This document shows positions 857-11,246 of a DNA stretch of 64,000 nt, in pieces. Both the position numbers and the translations under genes were made by a program. Source of the stretch: Agromyces subbeticus DSM 16689 (GTDB lineage: Bacteria > Actinomycetota > Actinomycetes > Actinomycetales > Microbacteriaceae). Location of the stretch: the NCBI RefSeq assembly GCF_000421565.1, contig NZ_ATXG01000003.1, forward strand, positions 62,001-126,000, written 5' to 3'. Under the pieces are notes generated by a model. The model saw nothing but the letters and a program-made list of their open reading frames with translations, ran no database searches and was not told the DNA's origin. How positions within the stretch are numbered: position 1 is the first letter of the stretch; each line of letters starts with the position of its first letter.

Positions 857-2242
857 CTACGCGCCGATGAGCCGTGCTGCCAGGTATCCTTCGAGCTCGG
901 CGAGGGGCACTCGCACCTGCTCCATGCTGTCGCGCTCGCGAACTGTCACGGCGTTGTCGTCGAGCGAGTCGAAGTCGACCGTGATGCAGAACGGCGTGCC
1001 GATCTCGTCTTGGCGACGATAGCGACGGCCGATCGCGCCGGCGTCGTCGAAGTCGACGTTCCAGTGCTTGCGCAGCGACGCGGCGACCTCGCGGGCGAGC
1101 GGCGACAGGCGCTCGTTGCGGCTGAGCGGCAGCACGGCGGCCTTCACGGGGGCCAGGCGCGGGTCGAGCCGCAGCACGGTGCGGGTGTCGACGCCGCCCT
1201 TCGCGTTCGGCACCTCTTCGACGTCGTACGCGTCGACGAGGAAGGCCATGAGCGAGCGGGTGAGGCCGGCCGCGGGCTCGATCACGTAGGGGATCCAGCG
1301 CTCGTTCTTCGACTGGTCGAAGTACGACAGCTCTTTGCCCGAGTGCTCGGAGTGGGTCTTGAGGTCGAAGTCGGAGCGGTTCGCGACTCCCTCGAGCTCG
1401 CCCCACTCGCCGCCCGTGAAGCCGAAGCGGTACTCGATGTCGACGGTGCGCTTCGAGTAGTGCGACAGCTTCTCCGCCGGGTGCTCGAAGCGGCGCAGGT
1501 TCTCGGGGTTCACGCCGAGGTCGACGTACCAGTCCCAGCGGTAGTCGAGCCAGTACTCGAACCACTCGTCGTCGGTGCCGGGCTCGACGAAGAACTCGAG
1601 CTCCATCTGCTCGAACTCACGCGTGCGGAAGATGAAGTTCCCGGGCGTGATCTCGTTGCGGAACGACTTGCCGATCTGGCCGATGCCGAACGGCGGCTTC
1701 ATGCGCGCGGCCTGCAGCACGTTGGCGAAGTTGGTGAAGATGCCCTGCGCCGTCTCGGGGCGGAGGTACTGCAGCCCCGACTCATCCTGAACCGGGCCCA
1801 GGTAGGTCTGCAGCATCATGTTGAAGTCGCGGGGCGGGGTCCACTGGCCGCGGGTGCCGCAGTTGGGGCAGGCGATGTCGCCCATGCCGTTCTCGGGGGC
1901 GCGGCCCTTCTTCTCCTCGAACGCCTCGAGCAGGTGGTCTTCGCGGAAGCGCTTGTGGCAGTGCAGGCACTCGACGAGCGGGTCGGTGAAGACACCGACG
2001 TGGCCGGAGGCGACCCACACCTGCTTGGGCAGGATGACACTCGAGTCGAGGCCGACGACATCATCGCGGCCGGTGACCATGTACCGCCACCACTGCCGCT
2101 TGATGTTCTCTTTCAGCTCGACGCCGAGGGGCCCGTAGTCCCACGCAGACCTCGATCCGCCGTAGATCTCGCCGGCCTGGAAGACGAACCCCCGATGCTG
2201 GGCGAGGGCGATGACGGATTCGAGACGGCTGGGTGCGGCCAC
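857..2242 (-). CDS. glyQS: Glycyl-tRNA synthetase (single-chain, dimeric type)
   Basis: 461 residues, the usual length for the alpha2-type class II enzyme that charges tRNA-Gly. The N-terminus ([22 protein letters not shown]) is diagnostic. A zinc site is formed by C92/C95 and C125/C128 in an insertion. [11 protein letters not shown] at 159-169 is the class II catalytic segment, and the last 100 residues form the anticodon-binding domain. The start is GTG at 2242, preceded by GGAG five bases upstream. It is a single-gene unit, divergent from the esterase gene at 2421. This is a housekeeping gene with no anomaly. Confidence 0.97.
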
Positions 2243-2420
2243 GGTGGCTCCAATGGTCCTGGGATCGGGCGAGAGGTCGGGATCGGGCGAATGCCGGAAG
2301 ACGACACGGTGTCACCATCCTACGGGCGGGCGCGGGCGCGAACGAGCGCGCGCCATCCCGCCGGGCGACTCGGCGTGCCGCTACGCTGTGCCCAACACGA
2401 CCGGGGCCGAGGGGGCAAGG

Positions 2421-3722
2421 GTGTGGGATCTCGTGCTCGAACTGAACGTGATCGATGGTCCGTTCGTCATCGCCGTCGCCGGGCTCTCGGCGCTGGCCCT
2501 GCTCTACCTGCTCTTCCGCGGCTCGGGCTGGTCATGGGTGATGGCCGTGATCGTGCTCGTCATCGTCGGGGGCCTGCTCGGCGTCGCGACGCTCTGGATC
2601 GCGGTCAACCTGCTCGACGCGTTCGGCGGCCCGGTGAACGAGGCGGCCTGGCTCTGGGTGCCTGCCGCGTTCGCCGCGAGCCTCATCGCGATCTGGAACC
2701 TCTGGCACTCGAGATGGTGGCGCAAGGTGATCGCACTGCTGGCGATCCCGCTCTTCGCCGGGGTCGCGGCGCTCGGCGTCAACGCCGCCTACGGCCTGAA
2801 TCCCACCCTCGGCTCGATGTTCCACATCTCGACCGCCGACCCGATCGCCGTGCCCACGCCCGATCCCGCTGATGCCGCCGACCCCGCCGAGCCGCTCTAC
2901 CTGACCTGGGCGCCGCCCGCCGACCTGCCCGCGAAGGGCCAGGTCGGTGTCGTCGAAGGCGGCGTGCCGAACACCGTGTCGGGCTTCCCCGCACGGCCCG
3001 CGCAGCTCTACCTGCCGCCGGCGGCGCTCGTGACGGATGCCCCGCGGTTGCCGCTCGTCGTCATGATGATGGGCCAGCCCGGCGACCCCGACGCGAGCTT
3101 CATCGGCGCGGTGCTCGACGACTTCGCCGCCGAGCACGACGGGCTCGCCCCGATCGCGCTCGTCATCGACCAGCTGAGCGACCCCTCGGTCGACCCGCTC
3201 TGCCTCGACACCGAGCTCGGCATGGTCGAGACCTACGTCACCCAAGACGTCATGCCGTGGGCGAAGCAGCACCTCGACGTGCTGCAGGGCCGGCAGTACA
3301 CCACCATCGCCGGTTACTCGAACGGCGGCGAGTGCGCGGCCTACTTCGGCGCGAAGTACCCCGAGATGTTCGGCAGCATCCTCGCAATCTCGCCGGTCGA
3401 GTTCGCGGGAGCGGAGCAGGCCGCCGATGTGCTCGCGAGCGTCTTCGGCGGCAGCCAGACCGCCTACGACGCAGTGAAGCCCGCGAACATCATGGCGGCG
3501 AAGGCGCCGTACCCCGACACCACCGCGGTCTTCACGGTCGGCGAGCGCGATCGTGCGTTCGAGCCCGGCACCGAGCGACTCGCGGATGCCGCGGCGGCGG
3601 CCGGCATGGCAACGACCTTCTTCGTCGTGGCCGGCGCCGACCACGACGCCGAGGCACTGAACGGCGGACTCGAGAAGGGCTTCGAGGTACTCTCCCCCAG
3701 GCTCGGATTGGCGGCACCGTGA
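2421..3722 (+). CDS. Membrane-anchored alpha/beta-hydrolase (esterase-D / antigen-85 fold)
   Basis: 433 residues. The frame is open further upstream, but GTG at 2421 has a GAGGGGG ribosome site five bases before it. Four hydrophobic helices occupy residues 12-125, followed by an extracytoplasmic hydrolase domain. The nucleophile elbow is GYSNGG with S300, and a histidine in VVAGADHDAE near the end completes the expected triad. The stop codon overlaps the GTG of the MprF-like gene (GTGA at 3719-3722), so the two are translationally coupled. In Pseudomonas, a hydrolase encoded beside an aminoacyl-phosphatidylglycerol synthase removes the amino acid from the lipid; the same role here is inference. 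A predicted -10 (TACGCT) lies at 2382-2387. Confidence 0.85.
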   Translation: MWDLVLELNVIDGPFVIAVAGLSALALLYLLFRGSGWSWVMAVIVLVIVGGLLGVATLWIAVNLLDAFGGPVNEAAWLWVPAAFAASLIAIWNLWHSRWWRKVIALLAIPLFAGVAALGVNAAYGLNPTLGSMFHISTADPIAVPTPDPADAADPAEPLYLTWAPPADLPAKGQVGVVEGGVPNTVSGFPARPAQLYLPPAALVTDAPRLPLVVMMMGQPGDPDASFIGAVLDDFAAEHDGLAPIALVIDQLSDPSVDPLCLDTELGMVETYVTQDVMPWAKQHLDVLQGRQYTTIAGYSNGGECAAYFGAKYPEMFGSILAISPVEFAGAEQAADVLASVFGGSQTAYDAVKPANIMAAKAPYPDTTAVFTVGERDRAFEPGTERLADAAAAAGMATTFFVVAGADHDAEALNGGLEKGFEVLSPRLGLAAP

Positions 3723-6286
3723 CCCGGACGACCGAACACGTCGACGACGCCGAGCCCACCGGGCGCCTGCGCTCGACCGCGGAGACGCTCGGCGGCGTCA
3801 TCCGTCGGGTGCCCTTCAGCATCGCCCTCGCCGTCGTGCTGCTCGGCACGACGATCGCGGCCGGCACCGCCGCCGGAAGCGCCTCCGACGCGACGACCTC
3901 GACCTGGGCTGCCGGCGTGCTCACGACGATCGAGGCCGGCCGCTGGTGGACGGTCGGCTCGGCGCTCGTGATCGCGTTCGACCCCTTCCAGCTCGTGTTC
4001 GGCGTGCTCGCCTCGCTGCTGCTGCTCGGCATCGCCGAACGCCGCATGGGCACCTGGCGCACGATCGTCGCCTTCGTGGTGACCGGCGTGCTCGGCGTCG
4101 CGCTCGGCACCGTGGTGCAGTGGCTCGGTTCACTCGCCGGCGAGTGGTGGGCGACGGGCACCGCCGCCGACCTGACCCTCGACCCGCTCACGGGCATCGT
4201 GGGCGCGCTCATGGCGTCGACGGCGTTCATGGGCACGCTGTGGCGCCGGCGCATCCGCCTCGTCACGGTCGCCTTCATCCTCGTCTTCGTGCTCTACGAC
4301 GGCGACTCGTCGAACGTCTACCGTCTCGTCGCCGCGGTCGCCGGCTACCTGCTCGGCGCCGTGCTCGCGCGCGACGCCTCGACCCTGTCGGCACGCCGGA
4401 GCTCGCACCGCGAAACCCGCACCCTCGTGGCGGCGATCGTCGCCGTGACCGCGGTCGGGCCGATCGTCGCGCTCATCAACCGCTCCGAGCTCACGCCGTT
4501 CGCATTCGGCTCCTACCTCTATCGCGACGACCCGCTCGAGCTGGCCGCGGTGATGGCGCAGTGCGGAGGGAGCACGGGCGGCGGGGCGGCGGGCGACGCG
4601 TGCACCACCCAACTCGCACTGCTCAGCGCCCAGGGCTTCGGCATGTTCCTGCTCTCGTTCGTGCCGGTGCTGCTCCTGCTGCTGGCGGCGTGGGGCCTCC
4701 GCAGCGGGCGACGCTTCGCGTGGTGGCTCGCGATCGCGGTCAACCTCGCCATCCTGCTCTTCGCCCGCACGGCGTTCGACGTCACGGTCACGACGGCCGA
4801 CGTCGACGACGGCACCTGGACGGTGTTCGACCTCGGCGAGCTGGTGGTCTGGATCCTCGCGGTGCTCGCGCTGCCGATCGGCATCATCGTCATGCTGATC
4901 GCCACGAGGCGGCACTTCCAGCTGCGCGCGCCCCGGCGCAGCATCGCGCAGTTCGCGGTGACCGTCGGCGCGACCTTCGTGGTACTGGCCGGCCTCTACT
5001 TCGCCGCGGGCCTCACCACGCTCGGTGAGTACTGGCCGGCCGCGACCGGCTGGGATCTGCTGCTCGACACGCTGAAGCGCTTCGTGCCGCCGCACTTCCT
5101 CGCCGTCGTCGACCCGATCGTGCTGCCGGGGCACGACCTGACGAGCGTGCTCTACCAAGTGGTCGGCCCGCTGTTCTGGGCGGTGTTCATCGTCGCCGCC
5201 GTACGGCTCATGTCGCGGTCGCGCGCCGAGACCGCCGCGAAGACGGCCGACGACGAGCGGCTCCGCGAGCTGCTGCACCGCAACGGCGGCGGCACCCTCG
5301 GCTTCATGGCGACGTGGCCGGGCAACGTGATCTGGTTCGGTGCCGATGGCGACTCGGCGGTCGCCTATCGGGTGATCAACGGCGTCGCCATCACGATGTC
5401 CGACCCGATCTGCCCGCCGAGCGAGGCCGGCCGCGTCATCCGCGAGTTCGCCGCCTTCTGCGACGCCAACAGCTGGGTGCCCGTCTTCTACAGCGTGCAC
5501 CCGCAGTACCTGCCGGTGTTCGACGAGCTCGGCTGGCAGCACATGTCGGTCGGTGAGGAGACCCTCGTGCGCACGACGGGGCTCGAACTCGCCGGCAAGC
5601 CGTGGCAGAAGGTTCGACAGGCGCTGAACCGCGGCATCAAGGAGGGCATGACCACCGTCTGGACGAGCTGGAACGAACTGCCGCTCACGACCGTCGCCGA
5701 GATCAACGCGATCTCAGAGGAGTGGGTCGCCGAGAAGGAACTGCCCGAGATGGGCTTCACGCTCGGCGGCATGGAGGAGCTGAAGGACCCAGAGGTGCGC
5801 CTGATGCTCGCGGTGGGCCCCGATGGCCGGTTGCAGACCGTGACGAGCTGGCTGCCGGTCTTCCGCGATGGCGCGGTCGTGGGCTGGACGATCGACTTCA
5901 TGCGCCGGGCCGACGGCAGCATGAACGGCATCATGGAGTTCCTCATCGCCTCGGCGGCACTGCACATGAAGGAGACGGGGGCCGAGGTGCTGAGCCTCTC
6001 CGGCGCTCCGCTCGCGTCGAAGCCCCTCGCCGACGGCGAGGCGCCACCCGAGCCGACCGTGATGACGCGCTTGCTCGACTGGCTCGCCGCGACGCTCGAG
6101 CCCGCCTACGGCTTCTCGTCGCTGTTCCGGTTCAAGGCGAAGTTCAACCCCGAGTACGAGACCATCTCGATGGCCTACCCCGACCCGCTCGCCCTGCCGA
6201 CCATCGGTCTCGCGATCGGCCGGGCGTACCTGCCCGAGGTGTCGCCCGCAGAGGCCGTCGCACTCGTGAAGACGCTCACGGCGTAG
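3719..6286 (+). CDS. mprF: MprF-like phosphatidylglycerol aminoacyltransferase with rhomboid-like membrane region
   Basis: 855 residues starting at GTG 3719, inside the stop of the hydrolase gene. The first part (about 30-240) has a rhomboid-like helix pattern, with AERRMGTWRTI and GIVGALMASTAFMGTLW. More membrane helices follow to about 500. The C-terminal DUF2156 domain (about 520-855) carries the MprF catalytic region, including GGTLGFMATWPGN, an NRGIKEGMT segment, and RFKAKFNPEYE near the end. These enzymes transfer an amino acid from aminoacyl-tRNA to phosphatidylglycerol, lowering negative surface charge and raising resistance to cationic peptides. No lysyl-tRNA synthetase domain is fused, unlike mycobacterial LysX. 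The amino acid used is not readable from sequence. Confidence 0.85.
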   Translation: MTRTTEHVDDAEPTGRLRSTAETLGGVIRRVPFSIALAVVLLGTTIAAGTAAGSASDATTSTWAAGVLTTIEAGRWWTVGSALVIAFDPFQLVFGVLASLLLLGIAERRMGTWRTIVAFVVTGVLGVALGTVVQWLGSLAGEWWATGTAADLTLDPLTGIVGALMASTAFMGTLWRRRIRLVTVAFILVFVLYDGDSSNVYRLVAAVAGYLLGAVLARDASTLSARRSSHRETRTLVAAIVAVTAVGPIVALINRSELTPFAFGSYLYRDDPLELAAVMAQCGGSTGGGAAGDACTTQLALLSAQGFGMFLLSFVPVLLLLLAAWGLRSGRRFAWWLAIAVNLAILLFARTAFDVTVTTADVDDGTWTVFDLGELVVWILAVLALPIGIIVMLIATRRHFQLRAPRRSIAQFAVTVGATFVVLAGLYFAAGLTTLGEYWPAATGWDLLLDTLKRFVPPHFLAVVDPIVLPGHDLTSVLYQVVGPLFWAVFIVAAVRLMSRSRAETAAKTADDERLRELLHRNGGGTLGFMATWPGNVIWFGADGDSAVAYRVINGVAITMSDPICPPSEAGRVIREFAAFCDANSWVPVFYSVHPQYLPVFDELGWQHMSVGEETLVRTTGLELAGKPWQKVRQALNRGIKEGMTTVWTSWNELPLTTVAEINAISEEWVAEKELPEMGFTLGGMEELKDPEVRLMLAVGPDGRLQTVTSWLPVFRDGAVVGWTIDFMRRADGSMNGIMEFLIASAALHMKETGAEVLSLSGAPLASKPLADGEAPPEPTVMTRLLDWLAATLEPAYGFSSLFRFKAKFNPEYETISMAYPDPLALPTIGLAIGRAYLPEVSPAEAVALVKTLTA

Positions 6287-6474: not shown

Positions 6475-6619
6475 CCGGTCGGTTTTGCTGGCAGGCGGTC
6501 TGGGAGCGTGACGACCGGTGTGAACCAGGGCATCGCGAGCCCGTGCGGGGCGAGGTTTCCGCCGCGACATGGCGACGGTGCCGGGTCTCGACACATCCCT
6601 CTTCATGCAAAGGAGCATC

Positions 6620-7777
6620 ATGGACGATCTCATCGAGCGCGACGACAACCCCGAGTTGGGCCGGCGCCTTGGACTCTCGCGGCGACAACTCCTCGCAGCG
6701 ACGACCGGCATGGCCGCGGCCGCCGCACTCGGCGCGGCCGCGTTCGGCGGGGGGCCGGCCCACGCCGCCACCCGTGCGGCCGCCGTGTCGGGGGCGAAGG
6801 GCGCCGGCAACGGCGTGCTCCTGCCCCCGGGCAAGCGCGGCATCATCCTCTACACGGTTCGCGACGCCGTCTCGCGCGACCCGAACACGACCGACCTCGC
6901 GTCGGGCTTCAAGGAGGTCTTCCAAGAGCTCTCGCGCATCGGCTACAAGCAGATCGAGTTCGCCGGATTCGGCCAGCACGCCAACGCCGAGGGCGGCAAC
7001 GTCAACAACGTCGCCGGCGCCCAGTTGCTGCGCACGTGGCTCGACGACAACGGACTCGAAGCCGAGGGCAACCACGGCTCGATCCCGTCGACCGTCAGCG
7101 ATGCCACGATCGCGGCGTTCGACGCGCAGTGCGAGGTCGCGAACATCCTCGGCCTCGGCCACATCGGAACCGGAAACGACCCGACGAACAGCGCCTTCGT
7201 CGCCGATTGGGAACTCGCCGCCGAGCGGTGGAACTTCTTCGGCGAGCGCGCGGCGTCGCACGGGCTCAAGCTGTACACGCACAACCACGACATCGCGTAC
7301 AGCTTCCTGCTCGACAGCGGCCCGCTCGACGCGCTCGGGCGGCCGACCCGATCCAGCGGCATCCGTCGCCTGGAGCACTTCCTGCAGAACACCGACCCGA
7401 GCTACGTGTACCTCGAGATGGACATCTACTGGGCGCACGTGGCGCAGTACAAGCACCGCAGCTTCACCGCGCCCGACGGCACCGTGGTCGAGAGCCTCTT
7501 CGACCCCGCCGGGGTCGTCTCGGCGCAGACCACCCGGTTCCCGCTGTTCCACACGAAAGACGGGCGAATCAACACGGCGACCCCGAACGGCTACGACATG
7601 GTGCCGTTCGGCCAGGGAGACATCGACTACACGACGTTCTTCCAGCGCATCGGTGCCAAGGGCTACCACAACTCGATGTGGGAGCAGGACACGGCACCCG
7701 GTGGCGGCGCGAACCCCGGCCAATCGCTGGCGTTCGCGCAGGTCGCGTACGACGGCATGGCCGCGCTCCGCGGCTAA
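6620..7777 (+). CDS. Secreted xylose-isomerase-like TIM-barrel protein (Tat signal)
   Basis: 385 residues. The frame opens at 6569, but ATG 6620 has AAAGGAG four bases upstream. A Tat signal is clear: LGLSRRQLLAATTGMAAAAA at about 17-37, followed by an AxA-type cleavage region near 45. The mature part is a sugar phosphate isomerase/epimerase TIM barrel (IILYTVRDAV, YKQIEFAGFG, LYTHNHDIAYSF, YVYLEMDIYWAHV), a family that binds a metal through His, Glu and Asp residues. Substrate is unknown. A strong hairpin lies in the 80-base gap to the secreted dehydrogenase gene; the two probably form an operon for an extracellular sugar or sugar derivative. Confidence 0.85.
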   Translation: MDDLIERDDNPELGRRLGLSRRQLLAATTGMAAAAALGAAAFGGGPAHAATRAAAVSGAKGAGNGVLLPPGKRGIILYTVRDAVSRDPNTTDLASGFKEVFQELSRIGYKQIEFAGFGQHANAEGGNVNNVAGAQLLRTWLDDNGLEAEGNHGSIPSTVSDATIAAFDAQCEVANILGLGHIGTGNDPTNSAFVADWELAAERWNFFGERAASHGLKLYTHNHDIAYSFLLDSGPLDALGRPTRSSGIRRLEHFLQNTDPSYVYLEMDIYWAHVAQYKHRSFTAPDGTVVESLFDPAGVVSAQTTRFPLFHTKDGRINTATPNGYDMVPFGQGDIDYTTFFQRIGAKGYHNSMWEQDTAPGGGANPGQSLAFAQVAYDGMAALRG

Positions 7778-7784
7778 AGCACAC

Positions 7785-7818
7785 TGCCCCGGGCCAGGCC
7801 GTAACCCGGCCCGGGGCA
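7785..7818 (+). terminator. Strong hairpin between isomerase-like and dehydrogenase genes
   Basis: TGCCCCGGGCC (7785-7795) pairs perfectly with GGCCCGGGGCA (7808-7818) around a 12-base loop containing CCGTAAC. It lies seven bases after the stop of the upstream gene and 40 before the next start, so it may act as a partial terminator or mRNA stabiliser. A similar hairpin follows the downstream gene (10717-10749). Confidence 0.65.
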
Positions 7819-7857
7819 TTCCTCGTTTCAGCACACCCCTCTTCCAAGGAGACATCC

Positions 7858-10632
7858 ATGTCCAAATCCAGAATCCGGTTGGGCGCGCTCGTGCTCAGCG
7901 GACTGCTGGCGGCGACGTCGCTCACCGTGAGCGCCGGGGCCGCAGCCTTCGCACACGACGGCCATGATCACGGCGACGAGGTCAGCGCCACCACCTGGGC
8001 CAACTACGAACGAGTGACGCTCACGAGAGACGTCGGCGAGCCGATCGACCTCGCCGTGCTGCCCGACTCGCGCGTGCTGACCACGACTCGCGGCGGCCAG
8101 GTGCGCCTCACCGATCCCGCCCAGGGCACCACGGCGGTCGTCAACACGATCGAGGTCTACGCGAACTCCGAGGACGGACTGCAGACGATCACCCTCGACC
8201 CCGACTTCGAGGAGAACGGCTGGGTCTACCTCTACTACGCGCCCCGCACGATGACGGCCCCGTACCCGGCGACGACGCCGACCGGTTCGGCGCCGAACAC
8301 GCTGCCGGCGGGTGCCGACGAGTCGTACTGGAACCAGTGGAAGGGCTACAACCAGCTCAGCCGATTCCACTGGAACGCCGAGACGAACTCGCTCGACCTC
8401 GCGAGCGAGCAGGTGATCATCAAGGTCGAGGTCCAGCGCGGTCAGTGCTGCCACGTCGCCGGTGACGTCGCGTTCGACAACGACGGCAACGTGCTGCTCG
8501 CCACGGGCGACAACACACCCGCGAGCACGCCCGGCGCCAACGGCTACGCGCCGAACAACGACCGTATCGGCTACAACCCCGGTCTCGACTCGCGTCGTGG
8601 CGCCGGCAACTCGAACGACCTGCGCGGCAAGATCCTGAGGATCGATGTGCAGGACGACGGCTCGTACACGATCCCCGCGGGCAACCTCTTCGCCCCGGGA
8701 ACCGAGAAGACCCGCCCCGAGATCTTCGCCACCGGCCTGCGCAACCCGTTCCGCATCGACTACGACCCCGAGACCGGAGCCGTCACTTGGGGCGACTACG
8801 GCCCCGACGCGGGCACGGCGAGCGACCTCCGGGGCCCGATGGGCTATGTGGAGTGGCAGAGCACGACGAAGCCGATCAACGGCGGCTGGCCGTACTGCCA
8901 CGGACCGAACGCGAACTACAACGACTGGGACTACGAGACGCTCGCCCAGGGCGACTGGTTCGACTGCGCCGCCGGGCCGATCAACACCTCGCGCCACAAC
9001 ACCGGCCTGACGCAGCTGCCCGCTGCGACGGCACCGCAGATCTGGTACGGCGACCAGGTCACGCACCAGCCGTGGCCCGAGCTCGGGGCCGGCGGGCAGG
9101 CCCCCATGGGCGGCCCGACCTACCGGTACGACGAGGAGAACGCGTCGACGACGAAGTTCCCCGAGTACTGGGACGGCAAGGCGTTCATGGCCGAGTTCTC
9201 ACGCGACCGCATCTTCGCCTTCAGCCAGGAGGACCCCGACGGCGAGGTCACGAAGATCGAGGACTTCCTGCCGAACGCCTCGCTCAACGCGGCTGGCATG
9301 CCCCCGTGGGACAACGTGATCGACTTCGAGTTCGGCCCTGACGGATCGCTCTACGTACTCGACTACGGCGACGGGTTCTTCCGCCCCAACCCCGACGCCG
9401 GCCTCTACCGGGTCGACTACGTCGAGGGCACGAAGGGTCCGCGCGTCGAGCTCGACGCCTCGGTGACGTCGGGCCAGGGTCCGCTCGAGGTCGATTTCTC
9501 GGCCGCCGAGAGCACCCACCCCGACGGCCTCGCGCTCAGCTTCGCGTGGGACCTCGACGGAACGGGCACCTTCACCGACGGCCCCGCCGAGGTGAGCCGC
9601 ACGTACACGACCGACGGGCAGTACACGGCGCGCGTCCGGGTCACCGACTCGAACGGGCGCGTCAGCCTCTCATCGGTCGTGATCACGGTCGGCAACACCG
9701 CGCCGACCATCGAGATCGTGACTCCCGAGAACGGCTCGTTCGCCGACTGGGGCGACACGGTCGCCTTCGAGGTGAAGGTCACCGATCCTGAAGACACGAC
9801 GATCGACTGCTCGCGCGTGAACTGGAGCTACGCCCTGGGTCACGACAACACGCACGCCCACCCGCTGTTCAGCGGAACCGGCTGCACCGCCGAGATCGAG
9901 ATGCAGGAGGAGGCCGGCCACGGCGAGACCGAGAACATCTACGCCCAGATCGGCGCCTCGTACACCGACGGCGGCAGCGCGACGGCTCCGGCGCTCTCGG
10001 CCGACGACGTGACGCTGCTCAACCCGCGCGAACTGCAGGCCGAGCACGCCGACGCGAAGGGCGGCGAGACGACGATCGTCGACGACGAGACCGCTCACGC
10101 CTTCCGCAAGGTCACCTCGTTCGACGCCGGCGACTGGCTGGCGTACGACCCGGTGAACCTCGTCGGGATCACGGGCGTCGAGGCACGCGCGACGGGCACC
10201 GGGTCGCTCTCACTGCGGTGGGGCAGCGCCGACGCCGAGCCGTTCCTGACGATCGACGTGGCGAGTGCCGGCACCGAGTGGCTCGAGGCATCCGCGCCGC
10301 TGGTCACCGTGCCGGAGGGAACCGATCGGTTGTTCGTGACGAGCACAGGCGGGGTCGACCTCGACCAGCTCGAGTTCACGACGTCGACCAACGACATCCG
10401 TGCGCTGCTCGACAGCCTCGACGACGACGACCGCATCACGCACGGCGCGGCGGCCTCGTTCGGGGACACGCTGGCCGAGGTCGACGCGGCCCTGGCCGCC
10501 GGTGACACGGCAACGGCGATCGGCAAGCTCGAGTTCATCGTCGCGAAGGTCCCGACCCGCATCCGCACCGACGCCGAGGCGGCGGCGCTCGTGATCCGCG
10601 CGACGGAGGCGGTGATCGCCGACCTCCGGTAA
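7858..10632 (+). CDS. Secreted glucose/sorbosone dehydrogenase with PKD and CBM6-like domains
   Basis: 924 residues; ATG 7858 follows AAGGAG by six bases. The signal peptide ends at an AAAFA-type site near residue 31. Residues 45-520 form the six-bladed propeller of soluble PQQ-type glucose/sorbosone dehydrogenases (LAVLPDSRVLTTTRGGQVRL, YLYYAPR, GQCCHVAGDVAFDNDGN, RNPFRIDYDPETG). A PKD domain follows at 530-610 (LSFAWDLDGTGTF), then a second beta-sandwich, and a CBM6-like domain at 720-842 (DAGDWLAYDPVNL). The last 80 residues are helical and FIVAR-like. The protein probably oxidises carbohydrate outside the cell while bound to polysaccharide. Use of PQQ is family knowledge; no PQQ synthesis gene is in the window. 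Confidence 0.88.
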   Translation: MSKSRIRLGALVLSGLLAATSLTVSAGAAAFAHDGHDHGDEVSATTWANYERVTLTRDVGEPIDLAVLPDSRVLTTTRGGQVRLTDPAQGTTAVVNTIEVYANSEDGLQTITLDPDFEENGWVYLYYAPRTMTAPYPATTPTGSAPNTLPAGADESYWNQWKGYNQLSRFHWNAETNSLDLASEQVIIKVEVQRGQCCHVAGDVAFDNDGNVLLATGDNTPASTPGANGYAPNNDRIGYNPGLDSRRGAGNSNDLRGKILRIDVQDDGSYTIPAGNLFAPGTEKTRPEIFATGLRNPFRIDYDPETGAVTWGDYGPDAGTASDLRGPMGYVEWQSTTKPINGGWPYCHGPNANYNDWDYETLAQGDWFDCAAGPINTSRHNTGLTQLPAATAPQIWYGDQVTHQPWPELGAGGQAPMGGPTYRYDEENASTTKFPEYWDGKAFMAEFSRDRIFAFSQEDPDGEVTKIEDFLPNASLNAAGMPPWDNVIDFEFGPDGSLYVLDYGDGFFRPNPDAGLYRVDYVEGTKGPRVELDASVTSGQGPLEVDFSAAESTHPDGLALSFAWDLDGTGTFTDGPAEVSRTYTTDGQYTARVRVTDSNGRVSLSSVVITVGNTAPTIEIVTPENGSFADWGDTVAFEVKVTDPEDTTIDCSRVNWSYALGHDNTHAHPLFSGTGCTAEIEMQEEAGHGETENIYAQIGASYTDGGSATAPALSADDVTLLNPRELQAEHADAKGGETTIVDDETAHAFRKVTSFDAGDWLAYDPVNLVGITGVEARATGTGSLSLRWGSADAEPFLTIDVASAGTEWLEASAPLVTVPEGTDRLFVTSTGGVDLDQLEFTTSTNDIRALLDSLDDDDRITHGAAASFGDTLAEVDAALAAGDTATAIGKLEFIVAKVPTRIRTDAEAAALVIRATEAVIADLR

Positions 10633-10838: not shown

Positions 10839-11246
10839 ATGCCTCAACTCACCGACCTCCGCGTCGCGGCGATCGCCCTCGTGCGCGACCGCCGCGTGCT
10901 CATGGTCACCGCACGCGACCGCGATGTCTACTACATGCCGGGCGGCAAGATCGATGCCGGCGAGACGGCCGCCGAGGCCGCCGCTCGCGAGGCGCTCGAA
11001 GAGGTCGCGCTGGTGCTCGACCCGGCCGAGCTCGTCGATCTCTTCGAGGTCGTCGTGCAGGCGCATGGCGAGCCCGATGGCCGCCTGGTGCGCATGCGCG
11101 TCTTCCGCGCCGAGACGGATGCCGCGCCGCTCGCCTCGGCCGAGGTCGGCAGCCTGCACTGGGTGACGACCGCCGAGGTCGACCGGTGCCCGCCAGCCGG
11201 GGTCGAGGTGCTCGAGCGGCTCGCCGCCGCCGGCCTCATCGACTGA
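10839..11246 (+). CDS. Nudix hydrolase
   Basis: 135 residues, a compact single-domain Nudix protein. The Nudix box is readable: G36, E42, R50-E51 and E54-E55, with the usual glycine near the end of the box replaced by alanine (A57). The preceding YYMPGGKIDAGE is typical of MutT-like members that hydrolyse nucleoside diphosphate-linked compounds. The substrate cannot be assigned. The start is supported by the leaderless -10 at 10826. It stands alone and converges on the peptide transporter operon; the 70-base gap is GC-rich, with imperfect repeats of GGCCGCGGGCC but no clean terminator. Confidence 0.9.
   Translation: MPQLTDLRVAAIALVRDRRVLMVTARDRDVYYMPGGKIDAGETAAEAAAREALEEVALVLDPAELVDLFEVVVQAHGEPDGRLVRMRVFRAETDAAPLASAEVGSLHWVTTAEVDRCPPAGVEVLERLAAAGLID

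Follow-up and report, generated by a model that had tools for sequence, protein, structure and literature searches.

The window analysed here, 64,000 nucleotides of Agromyces subbeticus DSM 16689 (contig NZ_ATXG01000003.1, positions 62,001 to 126,000), carries on its forward strand two overlapping genes, one for a membrane-anchored esterase and one for an aminoacyl-tRNA-dependent lipid aminoacyl transferase (referred to below as the synthase), which, judged by their sequences, appear to correspond to PesT (putative esterase) and AlaDAGS (alanyl-diacylglycerol synthase) of Corynebacterium. The pair is already known in Corynebacterium, and the window holds a member from another family of Actinomycetes. 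We consider it probable that the two proteins form a unit of the PesT-AlaDAGS type, in which the synthase makes an aminoacyl-diacylglycerol (aminoacyl-DAG) at the inner face of the membrane and an outward-facing esterase transfers the amino acid to phosphatidylglycerol (PG). The evidence obtained by computation comprises the protein families, the predicted folds, the catalytic triad and topology signal of the esterase, the linkage of the two genes and the absence of a rhomboid catalytic dyad from the synthase; papers are cited by PMC accession.

In 2015, Smith et al. reportedly found that alanyl-PG (Ala-PG) formation in C. glutamicum needs AlaDAGS together with a putative esterase whose gene lies upstream. 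The window synthase matched LPG_synthase_C (PF09924) with 269.8 bits (cut-off 27.5), and this family was found once in its own genome. The genome of C. silvaticum, a species that we take to be closely related to C. pseudotuberculosis, holds two PF09924 genes, one of LysX size (frame of 1109 amino acids) and one of 897 amino acids within a pair. The window synthase aligned with the 897-residue homologue over residues 93-852 (33.5% identity, E = 1.4e-113) and weakly with the LysX-type homologue (24% identity, E = 7e-17); as it also has no fused lysyl-tRNA synthetase (LysRS), these comparisons place it with the AlaDAGS type. For the esterase, a profile comparison by hhalign with 18 homologues from one genus, presumed to be Corynebacterium, gave a probability of 100 and E = 6e-75 over 408 columns, nearly the full length of the protein. 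The genus is so presumed because 43 of the 80 best records in a scan with these esterases were from Corynebacterium. The two C. silvaticum genes match the pattern reported for C. pseudotuberculosis, where, of two MprF homologues, LysX makes lysyl-DAG (Lys-DAG) and AlaDAGS makes alanyl-DAG (PMC10580965). The same paper discusses AlaDAGS and the pesT mutant of C. glutamicum in terms that partly echo a need for the esterase in Ala-PG formation (PMC10580965).

Linkage of the two genes was assessed in a class sample, in named genomes and within the genus; as the loci and genomes are kin to each other, the counts do not represent independent events. Among the 394 genomes of the class sample (thresholds of E ≤ 1e-10 for the esterase and E ≤ 1e-20 for the synthase), 109 had an esterase match and 191 a synthase match. 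All 36 class genomes with a strong esterase match (E ≤ 6.9e-44) have a synthase among the matches listed, and in 28 of the 36 a synthase among these matches lies within 5 kb of the esterase, in tandem, reversed, convergent or divergent arrangement, with 8 genomes remaining without (count based on the first 60 esterase matches, one of which, G287:C23, was dropped for an internal stop). The esterase was found in 170 of 251 genomes of the family that holds presumed Corynebacterium and mycobacteria-like genera, and in 48 of the 101 genomes of the presumed Corynebacterium genus itself. When named genomes were scanned with an alignment of corynebacterial-type esterases, 203 relatives were found, the best 80 of which were analysed as loci (43 from Corynebacterium); these do not equal 80 genomes, as L193 and L212 lie on one record and L192 and L214 come from one strain. 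The genes were arranged as a tandem of esterase and synthase in 66 of these loci, convergently in 4 and divergently in 1, while 9 had no synthase in the locus, two of them ending less than 190 bases from the esterase. In tandem loci L163 and L200 the synthase is split over two frames, and in L163 the esterase is split too. An esterase homologue was also found directly downstream of a LysX gene (NF002821, 1879.9 bits) in the mycobacteria-like genome G327. Overall, the esterase-synthase pair is widespread in actinobacteria and not a local arrangement. Six mycobacteria-like genomes (G031, G093, G174, G193, G203 and G253) presented 3-4 esterase matches each, one of which lies within 5 kb of a synthase. 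In G381 (L234) the site is degraded and the esterase is cut down to an N-terminal piece.

The preliminary description of this DNA had reported that a hydrolase gene and an MprF-type gene are joined by a GTGA overlap. The overlap is where it was said to be, and it is no mere accident of this locus: half of the tandem loci (33 of 66) show an in-frame ATG or GTG at a four-nucleotide overlap (ATGA or GTGA), 16 overlap in another way and 17 have a gap, overlap being defined here by an in-frame ATG or GTG at that site, i.e., a putative start. Through this overlap of stop and start codon, translation of the esterase and the synthase may be coupled. The further proposal of a fixed ratio of writer and eraser goes beyond what a four-nucleotide overlap can support, as the partners also occur reversed, convergent, divergent or single in relatives.

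Within the genus (the window's own genome and 18 others), the esterase is present in 10 of 19 genomes. A complete and close synthase stands beside it in 7 of the 19, in the window order in 6 and reversed in one (G005). In two genomes (G004 and G008) the esterase occupies the same site, with no synthase there and a more distant synthase elsewhere, and G012 (L227) has an intact esterase beside synthase remnants. Three genomes (G001, G006 and G016) carry the synthase (51-52% identity) and have no esterase match; G014 has a distant synthase only, and the remaining 5 genomes have neither gene.

The esterase matched Pfam Esterase (PF00756) with 41.1 bits (cut-off 22). The alignments used here and below were chosen subsets (A3, 22 esterases; A4, 18 of 20 loci, with L138, interrupted by an internal stop, and L136, a near-duplicate of L135, omitted; A5, 37 synthases, including 19 from the 66 tandem loci; A6, 22). 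An AlphaFold2 model built with 22 aligned sequences (mean predicted local distance difference test score, pLDDT, 92.8) shows an alpha/beta-hydrolase domain preceded by four long helices at the N-terminus; transmembrane (TM) helices are predicted at residues 14-31, 37-64, 74-96 and 99-124, and the hydrolase domain at about residues 139-433. The catalytic triad consists of S300, D377 and H408, of which the serine and the histidine occur in 22/22 and the aspartate in 18/22 aligned homologues; S300, which the preliminary description had chosen for mutation, is the serine of the GYSNGG motif and is invariant. Family, helices and triad thus bear out the membrane-anchored hydrolase described earlier. 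The mean number of lysine plus arginine residues among the 22 sequences was 2.09 in loop 1-2 and 3.18 in loop 3-4, as compared to 0.23 in both the N-terminus and loop 2-3; by the positive-inside rule, this bias indicates that the catalytic domain faces outward. Among solved folds, feruloyl esterases and S-formylglutathione hydrolases lie closest to the model (Z up to 25.6), followed at Z of about 20-21 by the Ag85 mycolyltransferases and mycoloyltransferase A (MytA) of C. glutamicum. As the fold is common to esterases and to the Ag85/MytA mycolyltransferases, transacylation is chemically plausible. Two cysteines, C261 and C305, were also invariant (22/22 homologues), C305 standing five residues past the nucleophile; a disulphide between them would fit an extracytoplasmic esterase domain.

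The synthase model (pLDDT 85.1) has three parts, i.e., a rhomboid-fold domain, a middle membrane module and a catalytic domain. Residues 30-221 of the predicted model superposed on the rhomboid GlpG with Z = 17.7 (171 aligned residues, 3.1 Å), and the N-terminal domain matched iRhom1 with Z = 17.2. At the sequence level, a profile of this domain also picked up GlpG (E = 1.6e-5), the match being confined to the first half of the domain. The Rhomboid family (PF01694) gave 21.1 bits over residues 74-216 of the full synthase, below its cut-off of 22.6, and 23.4 bits, above the cut-off, when the N-terminal 250 residues were searched alone; 11 of 22 synthase N-terminal domains scanned alone matched it at E ≤ 0.01. 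The earlier description of a lipid aminoacyl transferase with a rhomboid-like N-terminal region thus agrees with the PF09924 match and with the fold of the predicted model. Residues 60-225 of the window synthase contain no histidine at all, and register-free counts over the same residues in 37 homologues revealed no conserved serine or histidine column (best serine, 22/37; best histidine, 10/37), so that the domain should not be a protease. As a candidate rhomboid protease it has the fold and lacks the catalytic serine and histidine.

The middle membrane module probably stands where MprF has its synthase-side TM bundle, as far as the model shows; alignment of the synthase model with full MprF begins at residue 184 or 232, with a root-mean-square deviation of about 20 Å. 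From about residue 505 onward, the model matched the catalytic domains of MprF, A-PGS and L-PGS (Z = 30.8-33.1). The flippase domain LPG_synthase_TM (PF03706) had no match in the synthase at E ≤ 1 and none in its own genome at E ≤ 0.001, where 11 of 14 control genomes were positive. The LysX profile NF002821 scored 186 bits on the synthase against a cut-off of 742, with only positions 58-565 of its 1102 matched. By these profile comparisons, the synthase appears to be neither a canonical bifunctional MprF, as PF03706 is lacking, nor a LysX, as it has no C-terminal LysRS and falls short of NF002821. Its least familiar feature is the predicted rhomboid-fold domain, devoid of catalytic residues, at the place where the flippase domain of MprF would stand. 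A search of open-access literature found no title or abstract start on a rhomboid domain in MprF or lysyl-PG enzymes, a weak absence given the open-access scope; the word rhomboid does not occur in PMC10580965, and in PMC6656915 a rhomboid and an MprF-like protein are different genes.

Table 1. Features of the esterase-synthase locus (positions in the window)
Feature	Position	Strand	Remarks
PesT-like membrane-anchored esterase gene	2421..3722	+	GTG 2421 to TGA 3720-3722; 433 amino acids plus stop
AlaDAGS-type aminoacyl-tRNA-dependent lipid aminoacyl transferase gene	3719..6286	+	GTG 3719 to TAG 6284-6286; 855 amino acids plus stop
GTGA overlap, synthase GTG 3719-3721 over esterase TGA 3720-3722	3719..3722	+	
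Rhomboid-fold domain (predicted), residues 28-221, without catalytic dyad	3800..4381	+	
Second membrane module (predicted), about residues 232-504	4412..5230	+	predicted model; NCBIfam LysX/MprF matches from residues 307/387 onward
GNAT-like LPG_synthase_C catalytic domain (predicted), about residues 505-840	5231..6238	+	PF09924, fold match
-10-like element GCTACGCTG	2380..2388	+	by inspection, no statistic

For the proposed unit we infer the substrate lipid, the amino acid, the direction of the esterase reaction and the manner of membrane crossing as follows. The cytoplasmic GNAT-like domain would use a charged tRNA to esterify diacylglycerol with an amino acid (probably alanine); the first product is more likely to be this aminoacyl-DAG than the aminoacylated PG that had initially been expected. 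The protein has no MprF flippase domain; the aminoacyl-DAG would then cross the membrane either unaided or helped by the rhomboid-fold domain. Lipids based on DAG cross membranes more easily than those based on PG, which would explain why no flippase is needed. On the outer side, the esterase, anchored by its four TM helices and with its Ser-Asp-His site outside the cell, would take the amino acid from aminoacyl-DAG via an acyl-enzyme and pass it to PG, the transacylase thus acting as a second writer; it may also hydrolyse some of the aminoacyl lipid. A bolder extension, which we regard as rather unlikely, is that the inactive rhomboid replaced the MprF flippase and carries aminoacyl-DAG, or eases its passage, to an outward transacylase made from the same transcript, so that synthesis of aminoacyl-PG would take two steps, on different leaflets, and that LysX-linked mycobacterial esterases would likewise convert Lys-DAG to lysyl-PG (Lys-PG).

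Several observations weigh against the two-step transfer route. The genomes of the genus in which one partner is missing or broken indicate that neither strictly needs the other. Nothing singles out alanine among the amino acids, and the neighbour of the locus in the genus is a glycyl-tRNA synthetase. For the predicted esterase model, plain esterases are the closest folds and rank above the Ag85 transferases. The PesT/AlaDAGS identity is putative, the comparisons being with homologues from C. silvaticum and presumed Corynebacterium. Finally, papers disagree on Lys-PG as a second-step product, as it appears to be lysX-dependent in one (PMC10580965) and is cited as persisting without lysX in another (PMC12637418).

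The alternative put forward in the preliminary description, that the outward-facing esterase is an eraser which hydrolyses the aminoacyl lipid of its partner, so that the pair sets the steady-state surface charge, seems doubtful to us. The serine triad and the esterase fold, for which plain esterases are the nearest matches, would suit it, whereas the nearest characterised pair, AlaDAGS/PesT of C. glutamicum, reportedly needs the esterase to make Ala-PG. Moreover, VirJ (PF06057), the type to which PA0919 and AcvB presumably belong, had no match in the esterase at E ≤ 1; a search of its own genome for PF06057 carries no weight, as neither this genome nor any control genome gave a match. In favour of an eraser, hydrolases of aminoacyl-PG have been described in both Pseudomonas aeruginosa and Enterococcus faecium (titles cited in PMC10580965). 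In mycobacteria, Rv1639c, with an esterase domain, lies immediately downstream of lysX (PMC9504009), and disruption of the lysX-linked Rv1639c/MMAR_2446 left lysyl-DAG unchanged (PMC12637418, a preprint). This result speaks, to a limited extent, against a lysyl-DAG eraser, as it concerns one lipid in one species; it shows no transfer either.

Alternatively, the esterase could have a different substrate in the outer leaflet or wall, and its only tie to the synthase would be shared regulation within an envelope-stress unit. Both sco3396 (Pfam Esterase) and sco3397 (mprF) of Streptomyces coelicolor, which we liken to the pair by description, are sigma-E class I targets with promoters of their own (PMC6767563), and the esterase persists in genomes whose synthase is absent or broken at the site; however, the linkage recurs in four gene arrangements and involves two kinds of synthase, and we judge this explanation improbable. 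Four-nucleotide overlaps are common between adjacent actinobacterial genes, as is generally known, but chance adjacency in a dense genome was rejected as extremely improbable on the linkage counts (66 of 80 named loci in tandem, and a synthase among the matches listed within 5 kb in 28 of 36 class genomes).

Under the PesT-AlaDAGS reading, a local idea of writer plus eraser becomes an instance, open to testing, of a two-enzyme route that is widespread. Should the esterase be a transferase, aminoacyl-PG of actinobacteria would arise in a second, extracytoplasmic step, which could account for the reported production of Lys-DAG by LysX alongside low levels of Lys-PG. An inactive rhomboid inside a lipid-modifying enzyme would give the pseudo-rhomboid fold a further role.

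Upstream of the pair, the hexamer TACGCT or TACCCT was found 35-43 nucleotides before the matched start in 9/9 genus loci inspected (for the window, see the -10-like element in Table 1); scans for sigma-70 consensus promoters and for terminators at the pair found no sites. A glycyl-tRNA synthetase gene (glyS; window 857-2242, reverse strand) adjoins the locus in 14/14 genus genomes read, even where one partner is gone. No glyS was found beside the other loci searched, most of which had only 1.5 to 8 kb of flank, and as it was seen beside the locus only in genus genomes, it was treated as synteny and not as a clue to the amino acid. Downstream in the window, an isomerase/epimerase-like gene and a PKD-type gene (6569-10632; named by eye) separate the pair from a Nudix-like gene (10839-11246); genes of the first two kinds also follow the pair in G009, and in G018 and G001 the Nudix-like gene is nearer to the synthase than in the window.

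Among known systems, the synthase shares its C-terminal catalytic domain with canonical MprF (Rhizobium tropici 7duw and P. aeruginosa 9goe), and, unlike these, has no flippase domain PF03706. In residues of about 28-221 it shares the fold of GlpG and iRhom1; unlike GlpG, it has no catalytic histidine and no conserved serine there, and iRhoms are likewise inactive. Likened by description, the P. aeruginosa aminoacyl-PG hydrolase and synthase present the same placement of an extracytoplasmic hydrolase beside a synthase. The mycobacterial LysX/Rv1639c pair is similar in that a homologous esterase (via G327, with Rv1639c likened by description) stands beside a lipid aminoacyl transferase; it differs from the window pair in that the gene order is reversed and the synthase carries LysRS, and the LysX-type synthase of G327 gave no match to the rhomboid-like N-terminal profile at E ≤ 1e-4. 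AlaDAGS/PesT of C. glutamicum is reported to have the same layout as the window pair, the gene of a putative esterase preceding that of an MprF homologue devoid of LysRS, and differs in that the window pair belongs to another family of Actinomycetes.

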